7,575 bases of DNA from Lentisphaerota bacterium (GTDB lineage: Bacteria; Verrucomicrobiota; Kiritimatiellia; RFP12; UBA1067): the NCBI GenBank assembly GCA_015061765.1, contig SUVZ01000176.1, positions 1 through 7,575 on the forward strand, in the 5' to 3' direction. Made by a program: the position numbers and the translations under genes. The notes below the pieces were generated by a model. The model worked only from the letters and a program-made list of their open reading frames with translations. It was not told the DNA's origin and ran no database searches. Positions 1 through 7,575 of the stretch are shown in pieces. How positions within the stretch are numbered: the stretch's first letter is position 1; every line of letters starts with the position of its first letter.

Positions 1-44
1 ATGCAATCTTTAATGATTTCCAGCTCTTTTTTGCGTCCTATCAT
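1..44 (-). CDS. AAA-type ATPase, N-terminal end only (runs off the window)
   Basis: Reading the minus strand from an ATG at 44-42 gives MIGRKKELEIIKDC before the window edge. This closely resembles the start of the large AAA/archaeal-type ATPase family (PF01637/AAA_14-like, often with a DUF234 or DUF4143 tail), whose members begin with M-(I/V)-G-R-x-x-E-L and reach a Walker A motif about 30 residues later. That motif would lie outside the window, so no catalytic residue can be seen. The start is supported by an AGGAG on the minus strand (revcomp of 52-56) seven to eight bases upstream and by an extended -10 promoter at 73-81. An ATG six bases further upstream is in another frame and hits a stop after 13 codons. 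The family role is poorly defined and P-loop nucleotide hydrolysis is assumed from the family. The call rests on 14 residues and would fail if the continuation lacked a P-loop. Confidence 0.55.
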   Translation of the reverse strand, partial: MIGRKKELEIIKDC

Positions 45-72
45 ATCTCATTCTCCTGTCCGTTCGCGCCAT

Positions 73-81
73 ATTATATCA
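73..81 (-). promoter_or_regulatory. Extended -10 promoter for the minus-strand ATPase gene
   Basis: On the minus strand these bases read TGATATAAT, a perfect -10 hexamer with the TGN extension that lets sigma-70-type polymerase initiate without a good -35. Transcription would start near base 66, giving a leader of about 22 bases before the ATG at 44. No good -35 lies 17 bases further upstream; that position falls inside the first arm of the inverted-repeat cluster at 91-160. A repressor or activator bound there could therefore control this promoter. Confidence 0.6.
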
Positions 82-90
82 TAAAAGTCA

Positions 91-160
91 AGTTATGGGG
101 ATATTCAAGATTCAATATCGCCATAACTAGATTTTTATTACCGTTATGGCGATTATTGAA
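91..160. repeat. Three alternating copies of a ~17-base motif upstream of the ATPase gene
   Basis: Three related half-sites lie in +, -, + orientation. Copy A (91-105) reads AGTTATGGGGATATT. Copy B (111-128, minus strand) reads AGTTATGGCGATATTGAA. Copy C (143-160) reads GTTATGGCGATTATTGAA. A and B form a 15-base inverted repeat with one mismatch around a short spacer. B and C form a perfect 11-base inverted repeat (117-127 with 143-153), extended to about 17 bases by one single-base indel. Copy A covers the -35 position of the minus-strand promoter. This could be an operator with several binding sites, an RNA hairpin, or the end of a mobile unit carrying the ATPase gene. Confidence 0.7.
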
Positions 161-764
161 CTGGCGCAATCAGGATCAAATATATCTATTCCATTCCTAT
201 CGCCGAGATGGATTCTGTTGAAAACAGGAGTGGCTCTCAAAATCGGCAAAGAAAAGGCAATAATCAAACTCTTTTCAGGGTATGACCCCATGTGTTCCGA
301 CAGCAGAAGATGCCGCCGGAGTTCGTATATATTCACTCTCCACAAATCTCACCAAGCTCCCGTTTGTTCTTGTGTCTCTAGCGCTAGACCGCCGCCTTAC
401 CCCATAACCCAGGAGCTGCACATCCTTATTGACTATGTCCATAGTTTATAAACAACGAACATTGTTTATTGGCTGTGGTGGTGTGTTTTGGGAGGGAAGG
501 ATTGTGTGATTTTGGCTGGAGTTTGAAGATAGAAGTAATGGGGAGATTTGATTTCTGCGATGCGAAAATGCTTCGAGAGGGATGCTTTAAAAAGTACATA
601 CAAGCACCATTAATAGGAATGAGAATATGGTTTGGACTGTTTCTCAAGATTATGGTGCGGATGAAATCTTATATACTACCTGAATTGTGCTATTTGACAA
701 AATCAATCGGTAAATGCGCGAAATTATAATTCTTTTCGAGGTCTATCCCCAGTTGTTCCAACTC
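161..764. other. AT-rich stretch with no supportable gene
   Basis: About 600 bases separate the ATPase promoter region from the transposase remnant. Open frames of 70-100 codons exist on both strands (146-451 plus, 127-345 minus, 469-729 plus, 426-647 minus). None has a convincing ribosome binding site, recognisable motif or coding-like composition, and they overlap one another. The stretch is visibly richer in A and T than the rest of the window. The only ordered elements I see are two adjacent palindromes at 432-469 and a TTGACA-containing sequence at 691-705 that may be one end of the transposase-bearing element. It may be an intergenic region of acquired DNA or eroded coding sequence. Confidence 0.5.
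432..469. repeat. Two adjacent small palindromes
   Basis: ACTATG-TC-CATAGT (432-445) has perfect 6-base arms. Two bases later, ATAAACAA-cgaaca-TTGTTTAT (448-469) has perfect 8-base arms. Neither is followed by a T-run, so neither is an intrinsic terminator. Paired palindromes of this size in AT-rich intergenic DNA are compatible with binding sites for dimeric regulators, but no promoter or gene start beside them tells which gene they would serve. Confidence 0.45.
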
Positions 765-1160
765 TCAACCCGAATCGTGCGACAGCCTCGCTATGCACGA
801 CTGGAGAAGCGGTCGCGACGTGACGGCCTCGTGGTGCATGCCGTCGTCGCCGAGGCGCGTGAACACGTTCCACAGGTTCGCCGCGATCACGGACATCCCC
901 GCGAAGAGCGCGGTCTGTTTCAGCGAATGCGCGGTGAAGCCGCTCCATCCCCACTGGTTCTTCATCTCGTCGAAAATGTTCTCGCAGTCGCCGCGTTCGC
1001 GGTAGAGCGGAAGGACGTCCCTCGCGTCCATGTCGAGGTCGGTGACGAGCGCGTACCACTCGTAGCCGTCCGCGTAGTCTTCGTCCGGCGCCTCCACGAG
1101 TTCGAGGCCGGGAATCTCCAGCTGCGTGAACTTCCTCTGCGGAGGGTTCTTCCTTTCTTG
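765..1160 (-). pseudogene. IS4-type DDE transposase remnant (C-terminal part)
   Basis: The minus-strand frame ending with TGA at 767-765 encodes the C-terminal catalytic part of an IS4-superfamily (DDE_Tnp_1) transposase. The segment YRERGDCENIFDEMK (codons at 1004-960) matches the family signature Y-(2)-R-(3)-E-(6)-K exactly and contains the third catalytic acidic residue (E, codon 983-981). After it come NQWGW and a TSRPLL segment typical of these proteins. The two catalytic aspartates and all of the N-terminal ~250 residues expected for the family are absent, and no ATG with a ribosome binding site opens the frame. The frame is bounded upstream by a TGA at 1202-1200; similarity seems to fade above about 1100. 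At the other end the usual tail after ...IARL is replaced by SHDSG and a stop, so the 3' end is also damaged. It cannot be an active transposase. Confidence 0.85.
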
Positions 1161-1173
1161 CTTGGTCGCTGAA

Positions 1174-1203
1174 AGTATAGCACGATAGGATTTCTTGTGT
1201 CAA
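1174..1203 (-). promoter_or_regulatory. Sigma-70-like promoter reading into the transposase remnant
   Basis: On the minus strand TTGACA (1203-1198) is separated by 18 bases from TATACT (1179-1174), a strong -35/-10 pair. Transcription would start near 1167 and run leftward into the transposase fragment. It may be the original promoter of the insertion element, brought next to the 3' part of the gene by an internal deletion. No translated product with a proper start is evident behind it. Confidence 0.6.
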
Positions 1204-1210
1204 TTATGAC

Positions 1211-1224
1211 TTGTTGGCCAACAA
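1211..1224. repeat. Perfect 14-base palindrome TTGTTGGCCAACAA
   Basis: The sequence is its own reverse complement over 14 bases with no spacer. It lies between the leftward promoter at 1174-1203 and the rightward promoter at 1268-1296. This is a plausible position for a dimeric regulator, although the site could also belong to the edge of the insertion-element remnant. Confidence 0.5.
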
Positions 1225-1248
1225 TCTTCCAAGGGCTGGTTTCCTGCG

Positions 1249-1268
1249 ACCCCCAATTTCTTGGGGGT
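1249..1268. repeat. Tight hairpin: 8-bp stem with 4-base loop
   Basis: ACCCCCAA (1249-1256), loop TTTC (1257-1260) and TTGGGGGT (1261-1268) form a perfect stem, extendable by one G-T pair. No T-run follows on either strand, so a rho-independent terminator is not supported. On the minus strand the loop is GAAA, a stable GNRA tetraloop. Its right arm abuts the -35 box of the rightward promoter, so it lies just outside the expected transcript of the downstream gene. Confidence 0.55.
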
Positions 1269-1296
1269 TGCGGGTGCGGTGATGTTGTGCCATAAT
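1268..1296 (+). promoter_or_regulatory. Probable promoter of the tandem jelly-roll gene
   Basis: TTGCGG (1268-1273), a 17-base spacer and CATAAT (1291-1296) make a reasonable sigma-70-type promoter, with transcription expected from about 1303. The mRNA leader would be only about 35 bases up to the GTG at 1338. The group II intron domain V beginning at 1365 would then lie within the first ~65 bases of the transcript, leaving no room for upstream intron domains. Confidence 0.45.
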
Positions 1297-1321
1297 TCAT
1301 GCATCAGTTTTAAGGCAAAAA

Positions 1322-1341
1322 AGGAGAGGACAATGCCGTGA
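1322..1341 (+). promoter_or_regulatory. Ribosome binding site with two overlapping starts
   Basis: AGGAGAGG (1322-1329) is the best Shine-Dalgarno sequence near the first large gene. It serves either the ATG at 1333, which encodes only Met-Pro before TGA (1339-1341), or the GTG at 1338, which opens the 904-codon frame. The stop of the two-codon frame overlaps the GTG start (GTGA), an arrangement that permits termination-reinitiation coupling. The presence of this site upstream of the intron-derived block supports translation through that block. Confidence 0.55.
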
Positions 1342-4052
1342 CAACAGGAAAAGCACTCGATGGAAAGCCATATGCGGGAAATCCGCACGTACGGTTTGAT
1401 GAGGGGGAAGTCGCACCGGCGGCAACGCCGAGGCGTGGGTCTCTACTCTACGGCAGAACAATGGCGTTGGCGGCGGTCTTTTTGACCCTGTCTGTCTATT
1501 CAGAAACCGTCTATCAGAATGACTTTTCCTTGCGGTCAAGCGCAAAGCCTACGCCTGCAAAAGGGCCGCAGGTACGATATGACTATACGGCAGGTCGCCC
1601 ATTGGCCTTTTCTTATGGCAAGAGCAACTTGATCTATACCGAAAATCTCCCGTGGTCCAATCCTTCCACGATGCAGGACGGTTGGATCCATGGCGCGTAC
1701 GGCACATGGCATCCGGGATCATACGTCACCAACAATGTGGACAGCGATACATCTCGTCCCTTTGCCGCATTTGACATCAATGACGATAAGACAAACTGGA
1801 AGGGACTCCTTTACCAGCCGATCGACAATTCGTTCTCAAACGGCACTCTGACATGCTGGATCGACATGCGCGTACCGACCAGCTGGGGCATTAGCGGTGA
1901 ATCTCCGCTGCTCAGGTTCTTCCCTGCCTATCGCACCTTCCTCGAGAATCCTGACGGGCTTTCCAATGCATTCACATATCCGGCGGTATGCGGAATCCAG
2001 GGCAAGACCGCTGCGCGGTTCTTCGGTTTTGCCACAACTTCGACCGGTGCCGCAAACCTCTCCGGCGCATTCTACAACCAAGGTGTCGTTCCCGCCGGCA
2101 AGTGGGTCCGTTTCCGAATGGAGGTTAATCTTGACACGAAGGGATCATCCTGTTCGGTGTGGACGCTTGGCGATGCGGTGCCGACATGGGACGAACCCGT
2201 GACGGATGAAGGGCTTCACGAGAGCGGACGGTATCTCTATCGTTTCCCCACGGCCGAAAGGGGACCTGTCGAAGGCATTGGCCTGTATGTGGCCGGCGTG
2301 ACGTCCAAGGGGGACATAAGGAAGATGCCGGCGTTCACGAACATCCGCATAGATTGGCAGGCGCCCGGTTCCGCAATTCCCCAACCCTGCTATTCAAACA
2401 ACTTCGTCACCAGCTGGAAGCGCCGTTTGACGGCAGGCACGGTCGCCCACGCATATGATGCCGTCTCTCCGCACGTCGTGACCAACTCCTACGCGCCGGC
2501 GGTGGTCGGGCACATGACGTTCAACGACGGTTCGGCGACGCTCACGCCTGCGCCGAGCAACGCCAGGACAATCGGCATGGATGGCTGGAGCCGGTGCGAC
2601 AACAACGGCGGAACCGTCTATGCCGCAGGGACCGTGCAGCTGACGAACACGAACTTCCTCAAGATGTGCGCACGCACCTCCGGCGGTTCGACTGCGGGGT
2701 ATCGGTATGCCGTCGTGTGCCAGACGCTTGGCGAGAAGATTACGTCCGGCAAAGTGCGGCTGAGCGTGGACGGCCGTACGCCGACCAAGTGGTACTGGGA
2801 CACGAAATCACTCTCCGTGGCGCTCGGCAGCGATGACGTCTATTCGACCGCAACTACACAGAACTACACCAGCTACTTCGCCGCTCAGATCGGTGTGACC
2901 AGCTCCGGTCGCGAATCCAACCCCTACCCCATATACCATAGCGCGGACGGCCAGCAGACGATTGGAACCACCAACGTTGAGTTCAGGACGTGGCAGCGGT
3001 ATGTGATCACGGTCGATCTTGACCGGAAGACATACGACTGGGCGATCTACGATATCGGAGGAGGCGTTGCGAACCGGCCCAACCCGGAAACGCCCGTCGC
3101 ATCGGGGACTGGCGTTTCGTTCGAACATGATGTTTCGGATGTCGCGTCGTTCGTGCTGCTGGGCTATGGCTTCGCCTCTACCGACAACTTCAACGGACAG
3201 ATCCTTTTCGACAACATTCAGGTGTGGAAGAACTGGGACGACACCACGCAGACCGGCGACCTGATCTACTACAACGACTTCGAGATACGGAAGCGCATCG
3301 TATCGTCCGACGAGCGCCGCCTCACCGGCAAGAGCAACGTGTTGCTTACCGAATGCGACGGCTGGGTACGGCGCGGCGCGTGCGACGGCGCCGTTGCGAT
3401 CGTCGGCGATGCGAATCCGGCGGCGACGCTTGAAGGCGAAAGGGAGAGTCTGGCGTTTCACGACCTCGGCACGCATTGGGCGGCATCGGCTACGCGGCAG
3501 ATGACCGTGCGCGTGGATGTGCGCCCGCCAAATTACTGGTACGGGACGGGGCGGAAGCGCGCGATGGCCGTGATCGGCGGCGCGAGTGCGGCGCAGGGCA
3601 ACGCGCTGGACGGCGCGGATCCTTTGGCGAAGGCGGCGATACGCTTCGGCTTTGCCCCGGCCAGCGCGGATGCCGACGGTTGCGGACGATATGCGACCAT
3701 CGCCGCCTGTGCGGCGAACGGCGCGGCTGACGCGGTCGCCGACTTCGCCGTGAACAAATCGGCCTGGTACCGTTTCGTGGTGCGAACGAAGCCGGCGAAC
3801 GGCACCTACGACCTTGACGTCTATCAGCAGGGGACGCATCCAGCCGTCTCGGACGCGAATGGCATGTTGGTCGCGTCGTTCAGGGGATTGGCATACGCTG
3901 ATGGCGCGGACGGGGACCTTTCCGCAATCGGCATTGCCTCCGGCGGCGTTCACGGGTTCGCGCCGTGGGATGCCGAGGATCCGGGCTGCGCGCTGTTCGA
4001 CAACATCGTCGTTGACCGGCAGCCGTACGGAACCTCCATAAACATACGATAG
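1338..4052 (+). CDS. Secreted protein with three tandem LamG/concanavalin-like jelly-roll units
   Basis: The 904-residue product probably binds carbohydrate outside the cytoplasm. Residues 1-41 are encoded by a leader and a group II intron 3' module. A hydrophobic signal segment follows from M42 (MALAAVFLTLSVYS), with cleavage plausible near residue 55. Three ~290-residue units come next. Each opens with a Y-x-N-(D/N)-F motif (residues 59-63, 352-356, 644-648) and ends with an F-(D/T)-N-I strand (333-336, 624-627, 887-890). Each also has an internal DGW and a W-(V/Y)-R-(F/Y)-type strand. This matches concanavalin-like lectin/glucanase sandwiches seen in LamG-type proteins. I see no glycosidase catalytic motif and no anchor after the last unit. 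GTG 1338 is chosen because it has a good ribosome binding site and the intron block is open; ATG 1461 is the alternative but lacks one. The lyase gene downstream suggests shared substrate use. The fold is recognised by pattern only and ligand is unknown. Confidence 0.75.
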   Translation: MTTGKALDGKPYAGNPHVRFDEGEVAPAATPRRGSLLYGRTMALAAVFLTLSVYSETVYQNDFSLRSSAKPTPAKGPQVRYDYTAGRPLAFSYGKSNLIYTENLPWSNPSTMQDGWIHGAYGTWHPGSYVTNNVDSDTSRPFAAFDINDDKTNWKGLLYQPIDNSFSNGTLTCWIDMRVPTSWGISGESPLLRFFPAYRTFLENPDGLSNAFTYPAVCGIQGKTAARFFGFATTSTGAANLSGAFYNQGVVPAGKWVRFRMEVNLDTKGSSCSVWTLGDAVPTWDEPVTDEGLHESGRYLYRFPTAERGPVEGIGLYVAGVTSKGDIRKMPAFTNIRIDWQAPGSAIPQPCYSNNFVTSWKRRLTAGTVAHAYDAVSPHVVTNSYAPAVVGHMTFNDGSATLTPAPSNARTIGMDGWSRCDNNGGTVYAAGTVQLTNTNFLKMCARTSGGSTAGYRYAVVCQTLGEKITSGKVRLSVDGRTPTKWYWDTKSLSVALGSDDVYSTATTQNYTSYFAAQIGVTSSGRESNPYPIYHSADGQQTIGTTNVEFRTWQRYVITVDLDRKTYDWAIYDIGGGVANRPNPETPVASGTGVSFEHDVSDVASFVLLGYGFASTDNFNGQILFDNIQVWKNWDDTTQTGDLIYYNDFEIRKRIVSSDERRLTGKSNVLLTECDGWVRRGACDGAVAIVGDANPAATLEGERESLAFHDLGTHWAASATRQMTVRVDVRPPNYWYGTGRKRAMAVIGGASAAQGNALDGADPLAKAAIRFGFAPASADADGCGRYATIAACAANGAADAVADFAVNKSAWYRFVVRTKPANGTYDLDVYQQGTHPAVSDANGMLVASFRGLAYADGADGDLSAIGIASGGVHGFAPWDAEDPGCALFDNIVVDRQPYGTSINIR
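1362..1451 (+). ncRNA. Group II intron domains V and VI, 3'-terminal module, copy 1
   Basis: Domain V spans 1365-1397. The catalytic triad AGC is at 1366-1368. The lower helix pairs 1366-1372 with 1390-1396 (one A-C mismatch at 1370/1392), a two-base CG bulge lies at 1388-1389, and the upper helix pairs 1373-1377 with 1383-1387 around a GAAAT loop. After the GAT linker, domain VI (1401-1451) pairs GAG 1401-1403 with CTC 1446-1448. It leaves A1445 bulged 7 bases from the end, the expected branch-point position, and is capped by CGGCG-GCAA-CGCCG (1417-1430). The module ends in CTCTAC, fitting the AY rule for group II 3' splice sites. Domains I-IV and any maturase are absent. The block matches copy 2 at 44 of 45 bases over 1362-1406. 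It lies nine bases before the signal-peptide ATG and is translated in frame with the gene. Confidence 0.88.
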
Positions 4053-4062
4053 GAGTTTCGGC

Positions 4063-4341
4063 ATGGTGCGCCAAGCGAAGCTCGGCAGAGCTAGCAGAGT
4101 GAAAGGAATCTGTAGCCGATGCGGGGGCGTTGGTGCGTCTCCGTGGAATCACCGGGATGTCGGGTCCGGATGGAAGGAGGCTCCGCGAGGAAATGCGCGG
4201 ACGCCGACAGGGCCGAGGCAGGCGAGCGGCGACCTGTGCCGGGTGCGGCATGATGACTCGCGGAATCGGGACTTGACAGAAAAATGTGATATCCTATGCG
4301 GCGTATTTTTTTTACGGCACATAAGGTCTCGCGCAAAGTGA
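4063..4341 (+). CDS. Doubtful 92-codon ORF directly behind the jelly-roll gene
   Basis: An ATG at 4063 follows AGGAG (4051-4055), which overlaps the stop codon of the preceding gene, at a good 7-base spacing. Translational coupling is therefore possible. The 92-residue product is basic and unfamiliar. It has a CSRCGG segment near residues 17-22 and a single later Cys in LCRVR, which is not enough to call a zinc ribbon. The 3' half runs across the probable promoter of the next gene and an eight-base T-run, and codon use there is unlike the neighbours. I do not recognise it. A chance frame, or a non-coding leader behind the upstream gene, is at least as likely. Confidence 0.2.
   Translation: MVRQAKLGRASRVKGICSRCGGVGASPWNHRDVGSGWKEAPRGNARTPTGPRQASGDLCRVRHDDSRNRDLTEKCDILCGVFFLRHIRSRAK
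4079..4092. repeat. Small hairpin after the jelly-roll gene
   Basis: AGCTC-ggca-GAGCT is a perfect 5-bp stem with a 4-base loop, 27 bases beyond the stop codon at 4052. No T-run follows, so it is not a convincing terminator. No other terminator is visible between the two large genes, leaving read-through possible. Confidence 0.3.
4273..4300 (+). promoter_or_regulatory. Probable promoter of the GH28-lyase fusion gene
   Basis: A consensus TTGACA (4273-4278) lies 16 bases before TATGCG (4295-4300), a weaker -10. Transcription would start near 4307, about 48 bases before the ATG at 4355 and about 70 before domain V of the intron module. If used, the fusion gene is transcribed separately from the jelly-roll gene, and its mRNA begins with the intron 3' module and nothing of the rest of an intron. 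Confidence 0.5.
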
Positions 4342-4354
4342 AAGGCAAATAACC

Positions 4355-7300
4355 ATGAAAGAGAAAGTCATGCAAGGAAAGCCGTATGCGGGAAATCCGC
4401 ACGTACGGTTTGATGAGGGGACGGGCGCTCCGGCGCGTTCGGGGCGTTCCGCTCTACTCTACATGAGATGTCTGTTTGCAGTTGCGGTCGCAGGCACCGT
4501 ATCGGCGCTCGCCGCCGCCGACCTTGACGTGCGGGCGTTCGGGGCGAAGGGCGACGGTACGACCAAGGACACTGTGGCGCTGCAACGCGCCATCGATGCC
4601 GCCGGAGATGCTGGCGGCGGGCGCGTGGTGCTCCCCGCCGGCAAGTATCTAACCGGCTCCATCTACCTGAAGGACGGCGTGGAGCTTCACCTCAAAAAGA
4701 ATGCGGTGATCTTCGGCAGCCCGGACAGGGAAGACTACAACGCGGCCGACATTTGTCCGCAGAACTGGACGAGCAAAGCCGAATCGGCTTCCGGCGCGCA
4801 CCTGATCCTTGCAATCGAGAAAAAGAACGTGTCGATCACCGGCGAGGGTTGGGTGGACGGCAACTGCCGTGCGTTCCTGCTGGGACCGCACATCGTGTAT
4901 GCCCAGTCGAAGATACCGTGGCGCCCGAGCCAGATGATCTATTTCGTCCAGTGCGACGGCGTGCGGCTGGAGGGGTTCTGCACGCGCAACGCGCCCTACT
5001 GGACCTGTCTGCTGTTCGGCTGCCGCGATGTGGCGGTGAAGGGGCTTACGATGCGGCAGATGCGGTATCCGCACACGCACAACGGCGACGGCCTCGACAT
5101 CGACACCTGCGAGCGCGTGACGGTGGACGACTGCGACATTCTCGCCTCCGACGATGCGCTCACGCTCCGGGCGTGCGCGGGCAGGCTCACGCGTCCGATG
5201 GAGTGCCGGGACGTCACCGTGCGCAACTGCCGGCTTTCGTCGGCCTGCACCGCGTTGCGCATCGGCGTGGGTGACGGGGTGATCCGCGACTGCCACATCA
5301 AGGGGCTCAAGATCTGGCGCACGCGGAGCGGGTTCGACCTCGTCTCTTCGTGGAGCAAGACCTCGCCCGGCACGTCGTTCATCAACCTCACGATCGAAGA
5401 TGTCGAGATGGAGGTGGTGCGGTTCCTCACGCTCCGGCGGAACTTCGGCGCACCCGACAGGCAGGTCGATGGAATCACGTTCCGGAATGTGCGCGGGAGC
5501 GCCGAAATGCCGTCGTTCGCGTATGCCGGTGAAGCGGAGGGGGGCGCGTTTGGCACGGTGGCGTTCGAGAACGTGGACCTCGACCAGCCCATCGAGCTGC
5601 GTGGCGTGAGGAACCCCGTCATCTCCGGCGGCACGCTCAAGGCCGTATCATTCACCGAGGATCAGCGCAGGGCGAACGAGGCGTACTACCGCAGGCGCCA
5701 CATGGAATACTGGCACAAGGCGGACGTCACCGTGCCAAATCCCGTGCGCGTGATCGAGATCACCGACCATCTTGCCGCCGAACCTGGCTTTCCGGGCGAT
5801 CACATCTCGAACCGCAGCCGATGGGCGGCGGAGAGTCTTTCGGAGGGCGAGAAGAACGCCGTCAAGGACGCGAAGGAGCTGCTGGAGGCACCCATTCCGC
5901 CTTGCACTGAGGAGGCCTACATGCGTTGGGCCACGAACAAGTACTACAAAGCATCGACGATCCCGAAAGCCGAGCGCTACGGGATGGGTGAGCGCCAGAA
6001 GAACCTTGACGCGATGACCGTCGCGGAGTGCGTGGAGAACGGCGGACGCTACCTGCCGAAGATCGCGGAGTACCTTGACGCCATTGCCGTCCAGCCGAGC
6101 TGGGTGTGGGCGCCGCACGACCGCAAGCTCACCGCGCTCAAGGGTACGCGGATGGTGATCGACCTCGGCACGGCGGGCTTCGTCCTTTCGCTCGCGACCA
6201 CCCTTGACAGGCTGCGCGGAAGGCTGCCGCAGGAGACGGTGTCGCGCATCCGCGCGGAAATGGAGCGACGTGTGTTCGGTCCGTACCTTGCGGAGAGGCA
6301 AGGGTGGTTCTTCAAGAAGAACAACTGGAATGCGGCGTGCCACGGCGGCGTGGTGCAGGCGGCGCTGCGGGTGGTCGAGGACCGGACCCTGCGCGCGCGC
6401 TTCCTTGAGGCGGCGGAACGCGCGAACAGATGCTATCTCGAAAGCTTCCTCGATGACGGCTTCTGCACCGAAGGCCAGGGCTACTGGAACTACGGATTCA
6501 ACCAATTCCTCGACAACGTGATCCAGTTCCGTGCGTTCACTGGCGGACAGGTGGACTTCGCCCTCGATCCCGTCTGCCGCCTTGCGATGGAGTACCCGAA
6601 GCACTACCTGATTGCGCCCGGCATTTCGCCGCGTTTCGCCGATTCCTCCTCGTCCATATCCTGGAACGTGATGAGGCGTGGGTGCAAGGTGTTCCCGGGG
6701 TTCTCCGACAAGCTGCCGTCTCCATTGCCGGAACGCGACTTCTTCCCGGCGGCGCAGGTGCTGATCTGCAGGCCGGGTGAGGAGGGCGCGACCGGCCTTC
6801 GCGCCGCGTTCATGGGCGGCGCCAACATGTACAGCCACAACCACAACGACGTCGGCTCTTACGACATCATCCTTGACGGCGTGCGTATGGCGGGTGACGC
6901 TGGTGGGATGCCCTACACGAGAGACATGTTCGGCAAGGACCGCTACAAGTGCAGGCTTCTCAGTTCCTACGGGCATCCCGTTCCGCTGATCGGCGGCGTG
7001 GAACAGGCCTTCGGCGAAGGGCGCAAGGCCAAGCTTTTGGGGAAGCGCTTCTCCGCCGAGGAGGACGAGATCACGTTCGACCTCTCGCCCGCGTATCCCG
7101 GATTCAAGGATGGCGCAATCGTCCGCACCTTCCGCTACGACAGGGCTGGCGGCGCCGTGACGATCACTGACGCAGTCCGGAGCGACGCGCCTGCGACGAT
7201 GGAGTTCCCGGTCATGACCGACGGAAAGGTGGAGCCGTGCGCGGAAAAGGGGACGTGGATTCTATCCGCTGGTGGAAAGGCGCTTTGCGTGAGCATTTCG

Positions 7301-7447
7301 GTTGAAGGCGCGCAAGGCTGGTCTTCGCGCATCGAGGACATCGAGCGAACCTTGGCGAACCATCCTGCGCGCCGCCTTGCGGTGGTGATCGACGGGAAGG
7401 CGCAAAATGTCAAGGTAATCACCAAGTTCGGCATCCGGAAACGGTAG
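4355..7447 (+). CDS. Secreted GH28-like beta-helix fused to heparinase II/III-type polysaccharide lyase
   Basis: This 1030-residue protein joins two carbohydrate-active modules. Residues 1-36 come from a leader and an intron module; a signal peptide runs from M37 to about A55 (ending SALAAA). Residues ~57-433 form a GH28/pectate-lyase-3-like parallel beta-helix that opens with FGAKGDGTTKDT. NGDGLDID (N243-D250) and SDDALT (D266, D267) correspond to the NTD and DD catalytic regions of polygalacturonases. The usual GHG histidine region reads RIGVGDG (302-308), so activity may be altered. After a linker (~434-495), residues ~496-1030 resemble heparinase II/III lyases: WVWAPHD (583-589), NNWNAACHGG (656-665), EGQGYWNYG (706-714), then HNHND (828-832) in the C-terminal beta-sandwich. 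E706, Y710/Y713 and H828/H830 are the likely active-site residues. ATG 4355 has a modest AAAGG 9 bases upstream; ATG 4463 is the alternative. The substrate is probably an acidic glycan (pectin-, alginate- or glycosaminoglycan-like); which one cannot be read here. Confidence 0.85.
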   Translation: MKEKVMQGKPYAGNPHVRFDEGTGAPARSGRSALLYMRCLFAVAVAGTVSALAAADLDVRAFGAKGDGTTKDTVALQRAIDAAGDAGGGRVVLPAGKYLTGSIYLKDGVELHLKKNAVIFGSPDREDYNAADICPQNWTSKAESASGAHLILAIEKKNVSITGEGWVDGNCRAFLLGPHIVYAQSKIPWRPSQMIYFVQCDGVRLEGFCTRNAPYWTCLLFGCRDVAVKGLTMRQMRYPHTHNGDGLDIDTCERVTVDDCDILASDDALTLRACAGRLTRPMECRDVTVRNCRLSSACTALRIGVGDGVIRDCHIKGLKIWRTRSGFDLVSSWSKTSPGTSFINLTIEDVEMEVVRFLTLRRNFGAPDRQVDGITFRNVRGSAEMPSFAYAGEAEGGAFGTVAFENVDLDQPIELRGVRNPVISGGTLKAVSFTEDQRRANEAYYRRRHMEYWHKADVTVPNPVRVIEITDHLAAEPGFPGDHISNRSRWAAESLSEGEKNAVKDAKELLEAPIPPCTEEAYMRWATNKYYKASTIPKAERYGMGERQKNLDAMTVAECVENGGRYLPKIAEYLDAIAVQPSWVWAPHDRKLTALKGTRMVIDLGTAGFVLSLATTLDRLRGRLPQETVSRIRAEMERRVFGPYLAERQGWFFKKNNWNAACHGGVVQAALRVVEDRTLRARFLEAAERANRCYLESFLDDGFCTEGQGYWNYGFNQFLDNVIQFRAFTGGQVDFALDPVCRLAMEYPKHYLIAPGISPRFADSSSSISWNVMRRGCKVFPGFSDKLPSPLPERDFFPAAQVLICRPGEEGATGLRAAFMGGANMYSHNHNDVGSYDIILDGVRMAGDAGGMPYTRDMFGKDRYKCRLLSSYGHPVPLIGGVEQAFGEGRKAKLLGKRFSAEEDEITFDLSPAYPGFKDGAIVRTFRYDRAGGAVTITDAVRSDAPATMEFPVMTDGKVEPCAEKGTWILSAGGKALCVSISVEGAQGWSSRIEDIERTLANHPARRLAVVIDGKAQNVKVITKFGIRKR
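4376..4462 (+). ncRNA. Group II intron domains V and VI, 3'-terminal module, copy 2
   Basis: Domain V spans 4379-4411 with triad AGC at 4380-4382. The lower helix is fully paired (the A-C mismatch of copy 1 is G-C here), with a CG bulge at 4402-4403 and a GAAAT loop at 4392-4396. Domain VI (4415-4462) pairs GAG 4415-4417 with CTC 4457-4459 and leaves A4456 bulged at -7; GGG and CGG of the 5' strand then pair with TCT and CCG on the 3' strand. The module ends ...CTCTAC at 4462 and the signal-peptide ATG begins at the very next base, 4463. Domain VI differs from copy 1 in sequence and is 3 bases shorter, so the reading frame is kept. Upstream of it are only about 70 transcribed bases, with no domains I-IV. 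Confidence 0.9.
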
Positions 7448-7488
7448 CCATCAGCGCGTTCCTCGCCAAGGTCGCGTCTGCGTCGCAG

Positions 7489-7575
7489 TTGAGCCTTGAA
7501 GAGCGTCGCCAGCGCATAATCGCCCATGCCTTCCGCGAATACGGCACGATCAGGAGGCTGTTTCCGCCCGACATC
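7489..7575 (+). CDS. Possible start of another gene, cut by the window edge
   Basis: After the fusion gene stops at 7447, a different frame stays open to the end of the window and shows coding-like, G/C-ending codons. It encodes SLEERRQRIIAHAFREYG and then a TIRRLFPPD segment, a basic helical sequence I do not recognise. There is no ATG; TTG at 7489 is the only usual start within it and has no good ribosome binding site. The frame also extends backward through the end of the fusion gene, so this may instead be part of a broken gene. No terminator is visible between 7447 and the window edge. Confidence 0.2.
   Translation, partial: MSLEERRQRIIAHAFREYGTIRRLFPPDI

Follow-up and report, generated by a model that had tools for sequence, protein, structure and literature searches.

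Bacterial group II introns are found mostly outside housekeeping genes, as described in the cited part of PMC4424553. The closest precedent that we found for the locus considered here is C.te.I1 of Clostridium tetani; in the cited part of its report, four near-identical domain V-domain VI (D5/6) motifs occur in 5.1 kb, each ahead of an open reading frame (ORF) with its annotated start codon inside D5/6 (PMC3919590). Here we analyse a 7,575-nucleotide (nt) stretch from a Lentisphaerota bacterium (contig SUVZ01000176.1, positions 1 to 7,575), referred to as the window, which contains two such D5-D6 modules, each in front of a gene. We propose, with a probability of roughly three in four, that they derive from a mobile intron lineage that inserts at start codons and brings an in-frame start of its own, and that the modules are degenerate remnants of this lineage acting as leaders. 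Insertion at start codons, comparison with empty sites, conservation of frame, full-length relatives bearing a reverse transcriptase, and truncated copies can all be read directly from the DNA.

D5-D6 Modules of the Window

The blocks at 1362-1406 and 4376-4420 differ at 1 of 45 bases. The initial annotation had taken them for D5 followed by D6, and the Rfam family RF00029 bears this out above its gathering threshold for both module 1 (1363-1451, 89 nt, 46.7 bits, E = 6.1e-7) and module 2 (4377-4462, 86 nt, 53.1 bits, E = 1.6e-8). The predicted fold of each is D5 plus a D6 stem, with an energy below that of shuffled sequences (z = -2.8 and -2.9, respectively). Judging from the RF00029 matches and the folds, the D5 triad, the two-nt bulge and the bulged A of D6 appear to be present in both modules. 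In module 1, the D6 prediction shows the A at -7 as a bulge, and one D5 base disrupts a helix pair. The two modules share the 3' terminus CTCTACTCTAC. The features of the locus are as follows.

1321..1326, + strand: Shine-Dalgarno-like AAGGAG ahead of the module 1 leader start (sequence)
1338..1451, + strand: predicted module 1 leader frame, GTG start, through D5-D6 into the host gene (ORF 1338-4052; family frame test)
1363..1451, + strand: module 1 D5-D6, intron 3' end at 1451 (RF00029; fold)
1452..4052, + strand: module 1 3' exon (gene 1), signal-peptide-like protein (ORF, N-terminus)
4051..4055, + strand: Shine-Dalgarno AGGAG of the 5' exon, overlapping the gene 1 stop codon at 4050-4052 (sequence)
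4063..4065, + strand: host start codon ATG abutting the intron 5' end (family 5' end comparison)
4066..4462, + strand: module 2, a 397-nt group II intron with an internal deletion, from 5' GTGCGCC to 3' CTCTAC (5' end, D4 end and D5-D6 as in the L018 intron)
4273..4278, + strand: module 2 TTGACA, -35-like, putatively part of a promoter (sequence comparison)
4355..4462, + strand: predicted module 2 leader frame, ATG start, through D5-D6 (ORF 4355-7447; identical or similar leaders in 38 proteins)
4377..4462, + strand: module 2 D5-D6 (RF00029; fold)
4463..7447, + strand: module 2 3' exon (gene 2), signal-peptide-like GH28/pectate-lyase-like protein (PF12708, PF00295; ORF; N-terminus)

The initial annotation had described both modules as solitary, free of domains I-IV (D1-D4) and of a reverse transcriptase, and had named attached full-length introns as grounds for refutation. 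No reverse transcriptase fragment was found upstream of either module, and no D1-D4 family was detected in the window at E <= 1 in the Rfam scan. Module 2, in contrast, turned out not to stand alone. The GUGYG 5' boundary is present at 4066 in the form seen at the related locus L018, and is followed by about 49 nt of the 5' part of D1 (judged by eye) and then by the D4 end. The L018 intron is 900 nt long (2332-3231), starts with GTGCGCCAAGCGAAGCTCGGC, and matches module 2 in its D4 end and D5-D6. By this comparison, module 2 is an internally deleted copy of a group II intron, 397 nt in length, and the refuting condition applies to it in part, the attached intron being a deleted one. For module 1, a search of the 1363 nt upstream detected no 5' end, and among the 90 BLAST matches listed, those to family copies begin at position 1292 or later. 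In our reading, module 1 is a 5'-truncated intron and module 2 an internally deleted one, and both have probably lost the ability to splice and serve as leaders for expression. Lacking D1-D4 and the reverse transcriptase, the window copies do not qualify as complete group II introns, but they fit as remnants of such introns.

An ATG lies 9 nt inside the exon of module 1 and right at the exon start of module 2, as the earlier placement of the modules 0-9 bases before an ATG implied. What that placement missed is that the frame is open through both modules, from GTG 1338 and ATG 4355, into the downstream gene. We also note that the frame from the host ATG at 4063 runs into the deleted intron and ends at 4341, 14 nt ahead of the leader ATG, and translational coupling is therefore possible at module 2.

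A Dispersed Family in Related Genomes

The family was surveyed through D5 matches in public genome contigs of relatives. The exact D5 pattern was found in 22 stretches, with titles naming Kiritimatiellae, Lentisphaerae, Verrucomicrobia, Verrucomicrobiia or uncultured bacteria and many from ruminant gut; it was found in none of the viral contigs. When the first 42 residues of gene 2 were used as a protein query, admitting proteins of 0.55-1.75 times the query length, 38 proteins with varied domains were recovered that have the same or a similar leader around GKPYAGNPHVRFDEG. A search tolerating up to 3 mismatches located D5 at 121 places, in 37 of the 114 genomes from one family (Kiritimatiellae-type gut genomes), compared with 0 for a reversed-pattern control. 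The dispersed family with a positional rule that the initial annotation had postulated is therefore real, and is not confined to the two copies in the window. The family analysis below comprises 127 distinct D5 copies, with the 3' end located in 122, and the intron scan of the 22 loci covered 20 (all except L013 and L021). D1-D4 are present in relatives, namely at L002, at L007 and on the contigs of L018 and L183, and the reverse transcriptases of L183 and L157 match TIGR04416 with 366 and 363 bits, respectively.

Many of the 38 leader proteins (P0001-P0038) end in a hydrophobic C-terminal tail such as GLMIIVK; a motif written after inspection of these tails matches 18 of the 38, versus 3 of 188 baseline genes, and the tail is possibly a sorting tail. 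Loci L005 and L022 are identical in their 5' flank and deleted intron and differ in their 3' exons, a pattern that points either to recombination at modules or to an assembly chimera.

Insertion Directly Behind Start Codons

The 5' end was searched alone, with a pattern in which ATG was not required. In the family genomes this pattern occurs at 46 sites in 19 of 114 genomes, 44 of them after ATG and 2 after GTG. Over all loci, 53 hits had enough upstream sequence and 50 were counted as family 5' ends; L017, L019 and a hit on the minus strand of the window were judged not to be such ends. ATG precedes 46 of the 50, GTG 2, and CAG the 2 that belong to a GTACGCC subtype. Every distinct GTGCGCC end (48 of 48; ATG 46, GTG 2) lies behind a start codon, with G at -1 and T at -2 in 48/48 and A (46) or G (2) at -3, and a Shine-Dalgarno-like motif lies between -18 and -7 in 43 of them. 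The GTG ahead of the L018 intron can alternatively be taken as the fourth codon after an in-frame ATG. This is a different rule from the position before secreted genes that had been suggested earlier, and the earlier view that placement is not random is upheld.

A class-level search with the 21-nt 5' end returned 63 sites in 27 of 345 genomes. ATG precedes 44 of them, all in genomes of the same family. The 17 sites outside the family are preceded by sequences ending in CTG, TTG (one), TCG, GTA, CCG, GGA or AGA, and by ATG or GTG in 0/17. From the contrast between 48/48 within the family and 0/17 outside, start-codon insertion looks like a derived property of this lineage.

The secretin P0003 provides the comparison with an empty site. 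Its leader ends in ...RSALLY and continues as KLKLEVLITV (junction ...LLY|KLKLEVLITV). The homologues P0039-P0071, the best 33 of 737, all start with M|KLKLE (33/33) and have no leader. Read against these leaderless homologues, the insertion in P0003 is between codon 1 and codon 2. Insertion has also occurred into earlier modules: introns at L058 and L173 are inserted behind the leader start of older modules, tandem leaders are present in P0013 and P0021, and older modules lie in the exons of L047 and L096. In a related subtype (L078, L085, L064), the intron starts with GTACGCC behind ...AAGGGTCAGA..TTGATACAG or a similar sequence, and not at start codons.

A Reading Frame Through D5 and D6

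The phase from the leader to the intron 3' end is kept in 116 of 122 copies. The exon could be followed for 100 codons or more in 117 copies; in 95 of these the leader is in phase and its frame stays open over at least that distance, while the other two exon frames are so open in 4 and 16. By the bases that precede D5, the copies divide into a main type (104) and a CACACGG/CACATGG type (23). Main-type copies are in phase in 96/99 and lead into an ORF of at least 100 codons in 88/95, and their in-phase distances from D5 to the 3' end take the values 85, 88, 157, 205 and 226. The leader starts with ATG in 89 copies and GTG in 22; no start was found in 16, for several of which the contig begins too near. 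A Shine-Dalgarno-like motif is present ahead of the leader start in 92/101. The first base of the exon is A in 105/122, and AAA or AAG is the first codon in 59. Four of the 95 in-frame exons begin with ATG. An in-frame ATG occurs within the first 15 codons in 48, and the remaining 47 would lack an obvious start without the leader start. In P0035, P0037, L018 and L096, an insertion breaks up D5 and the frame is kept.

Small palindrome-like insertions are found within D5 or in the D6 loop of L018, L096, L002, L014, L017, L084 and L009, those seen in D5 being frame-keeping. Upstream of leaders (e.g., L035, L045 and L005), an A/G homopolymer run of variable length lies between TTGACA and TATAAT, and might tune expression through slippage. 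Base changes in D5 of solitary copies are synonymous in 63/111 (random expectation 0.24). This excess is not used here as proof of coding selection, as copies that retain a 5' end or reverse transcriptase give 19/38, and shared polymorphisms dominate.

Copy Classes and Decay

The 127 copies were sorted by the presence of a 5' end, found by an exact motif such that diverged 5' ends would be missed, and of reverse transcriptase remnants, searched for separately. Both ends and a reverse transcriptase are present on one contig in 7 copies, two of which belong to the GTACGCC subtype. Both ends are retained in 4 ORF-less copies and in 6 internally deleted ones, module 2 included. The largest assigned class, 39/127 or 39/63 of those assessable, has neither a 5' end nor a reverse transcriptase in at least 2 kb of upstream sequence, and in this respect the initial annotation is borne out. 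Other copies without a 5' end carry reverse transcriptase remnants (4) or at least 300 residues of reverse transcriptase (3). Module 1 is among the remaining 18, which have 0.6-2 kb of upstream sequence.

The 5' junctions of solitary copies vary, as judged by eye, from positions before the promoter-like hexamers to positions near the Shine-Dalgarno motif or inside the leader. In L216 and L248 the junction is inside the leader and runs into upstream coding-like sequence. From what is established about retrohoming, target-primed reverse transcription that stops early would be predicted to leave such copies, with the 3' end fixed and the 5' end varying. Broken D5 helix pairs occur in 12/56 solitary copies, versus 1/25 of those retaining a 5' end or reverse transcriptase and 3/46 of those at contig ends. 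This is expected if RNA function has lapsed, or if the solitary copies are older.

Genes Downstream of the Modules

Signal-peptide-like N-termini were called by a simple hydrophobicity rule applied to native N-termini, and 188 genes served as the baseline, taken from 399 kb that belongs mostly to the same genomes. They are found in 74/95 in-frame exons versus 51/188 baseline genes (p = 2e-16), which agrees with the link to signal-peptide genes suggested in the initial annotation. When matched for second codon, 47.3/95 are expected versus the 74 observed, and the second codon therefore accounts for part of the bias and not all of it. For AAA or AAG as second codon, the fractions are 43/51 exons and 22/32 baseline genes (p = 0.11); for other second codons starting with A, 27/39 and 13/44 (p = 0.0004); and for the remaining codons, 4/5 and 16/112 (p = 0.003). 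After this matching an excess is left, reflecting either a preference for genes that encode exported proteins or better survival of copies in them. An initial smaller baseline (14/39) was replaced because it had been drawn from the module loci themselves. The matched analysis also supersedes comparisons of all 95 exons with the AAA/AAG genes (22/32, p = 0.34) and with the A-starting genes (35/76, p = 3e-5).

Gene 1 of the window (1452..4052) has no Pfam or NCBIfam match at E = 0.001. Upstream of module 1, a fragment of an IS1380-type transposase lies on the minus strand at 765-1097 (NF033539, 46.8 bits, under the cut-off of 180), and a near-perfect inverted repeat of about 25 bp at 81-138 gives a weak Rfam match to MIR868, far under gathering.

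Proposed Mechanism and Alternatives

In the proposed mechanism, a mobile group II intron would insert between the start codon and the second codon of a host gene. The end of its D4 would supply a start codon, usually with a Shine-Dalgarno motif and often with promoter-like hexamers that may act as a promoter. The frame from this start would pass through D5 and D6 and rejoin the host gene at codon 2. With such an intron-borne in-frame start, the host gene should remain translatable behind a copy that is unspliced, splicing-dead or 5'-truncated, and its protein would gain about 36-38 N-terminal residues, or more where D6 is enlarged. Truncated copies would arise by incomplete target-primed reverse transcription, and those that keep the frame may be the ones spared by selection. 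It is probable, from the conserved frame, that truncated copies persist as translated leaders. A further step is more speculative and, in our estimate, rather doubtful: D5-D6 may be "bilingual", acting as a ribozyme when the intron is spliced and as a leader when it is retained, so that retention switches the form of the protein and the truncated copies constitute a commonly expressed gene set.

Several observations weigh against the start-codon-inserting lineage, or limit it. Six copies are out of phase, with D5-to-3'-end lengths of 77 (twice), 81, 134, 158 and 201, where the two ends at 77 (L078 and L244) may have been misplaced by the motif used. Of the 117 copies with sufficient exon, 22 do not lead in phase into an ORF of 100 codons or more, and 15 of them have the CACACGG/CACATGG lead-in; copies of this type are in phase in 20/23, but enter a long ORF in only 7/22. 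The leaders of L100 and L164 are in phase with the junction, yet the long ORF that follows uses a different frame in both; L164 also has an ATG ahead of its 5' end. The two promoter hexamers, allowing up to 1 mismatch, were counted in 56 and 55 of 88 copies (raw counts, uncorrected for chance), and by eye their spacing is frequently below 17. The copies share ancestry, and the frame is therefore partly kept without selection. At least 6/17 sites outside the family (L310, L317-L321) diverge soon after the common 21 nt, so the contrast sites are not all close relatives. Finally, 46/127 copies lie less than 600 nt from a contig end, where no class can be assigned, and the assemblies are mostly metagenomic.

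Shared ancestry, together with the accumulation of broken pairs, is also what inert debris would display, that is, decaying 5'-truncated copies with no role, whose open frames would be inherited and whose host genes would start at native codons further downstream. The ATGs at or near the start of the window exons, the in-frame ATG within 15 codons in 48/95 exons, and the displaced ORFs of L100 and L164 agree with such decay. It is nevertheless unlikely, since phase is kept in 96/99 main-type copies over five different D5-to-3'-end lengths, insertions that destroy D5 keep the frame, and the first 15 codons lack an in-frame ATG in 47/95 in-frame exons.

Two splicing-based explanations are less probable still. 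Trans-splicing, in which a 5' piece (GTGCG...) and a D5-D6 piece are joined while RNA of intact copies provides the missing D1-D4 core, as in tripartite organelle introns, is improbable because 39/63 assessable copies have no 5' piece, so most copies could not use this route. D5 is moreover broken up in frame in P0035, P0037, L018 and L096, and broken pairs are most frequent in solitary copies (12/56 versus 1/25 and 3/46), though these copies may just be older. The idea derives some appeal from module 2 and five other copies, which keep both ends with the middle deleted, from the intact reverse-transcriptase-bearing copies in relatives, and from the mention of fragmented introns that reassociate and splice in trans in the cited part of PMC2882425. 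Alternative splicing of the C. tetani type, with several downstream D5-D6 units serving as alternative 3' splice sites for one upstream D1-D4, is brought to mind by the two units of the window, about 3 kb apart on one strand and each before an ORF, and by the four motifs of C.te.I1 in 5.1 kb (PMC3919590). We regard it as very improbable: no D1-D4 family, shared or otherwise, is detected in the window, all 48 GTGCGCC ends follow a start codon rather than an upstream coding exon, and for 39/63 assessable copies, 2 kb or more of upstream sequence contains no 5' end.

Implications

If introns of this lineage land behind start codons, they seem to solve the insertion problem by also bringing an in-frame start through the catalytic domain. 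D5 would then be readable both as RNA and as protein, and truncated retroelements would have a route to become the N-terminal sequence of many unrelated genes. The contrast between 48/48 within the family and 0/17 outside is a clean one for asking how an intron changes its target. A warning for annotation also follows, as "GKPYAGNPHVRFDEG" N-termini of predicted proteins are intron-derived. Should the bilingual reading be true, intron retention would toggle between the native signal-peptide form and a leader-extended form of the protein, and the truncated copies would bring a scattered group of genes, mostly for secreted proteins, under shared expression signals that stem from the intron.

Comparison with Known Systems

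No start-codon-specific lineage of group II introns was found in the literature searched, as far as the portions available go, with most subscription journals outside its coverage. An intron in groEL of Azotobacter reportedly belongs to a lineage specialised for codon or terminator sites, as Michel et al. are said to have described in 2007. It resembles the window family in that insertion at a translational signal may limit harm to the host; it lies at the stop codon of one gene, and the window family at the start codons of many. Group IIC-attC introns target attC sites and, reportedly according to Leon et al. in 2010, possess internal, outward-oriented promoters. They share with the window family expression signals that are borne by the intron and point outwards, and we know of no in-frame translated leader through D5-D6 among them.

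The expansion in Thermosynechococcus elongatus is similar in that reverse-transcriptase-bearing introns, many ORF-less copies and some deleted copies coexist in one genome (PMC2882425). The targets are varied there, and one family sits between two start codons of an intron ORF; the cited part of the report describes neither a start-codon rule across host genes nor an in-frame leader through D5 (PMC2882425). C.te.I1 is like the window family in having several near-identical D5/6 units before ORFs with a start in D5/6, and in host genes that are surface- or cell-wall-like (PMC3919590). In C.te.I1, as the cited part describes it, one D1-D4 serves four D5/6 units and a 5' exon protein is fused to each (PMC3919590). 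This is in contrast to the window family, in which the 5' ends lie behind start codons, many D5-D6 units occur without a 5' part, and a reverse transcriptase is encoded in intact relatives.

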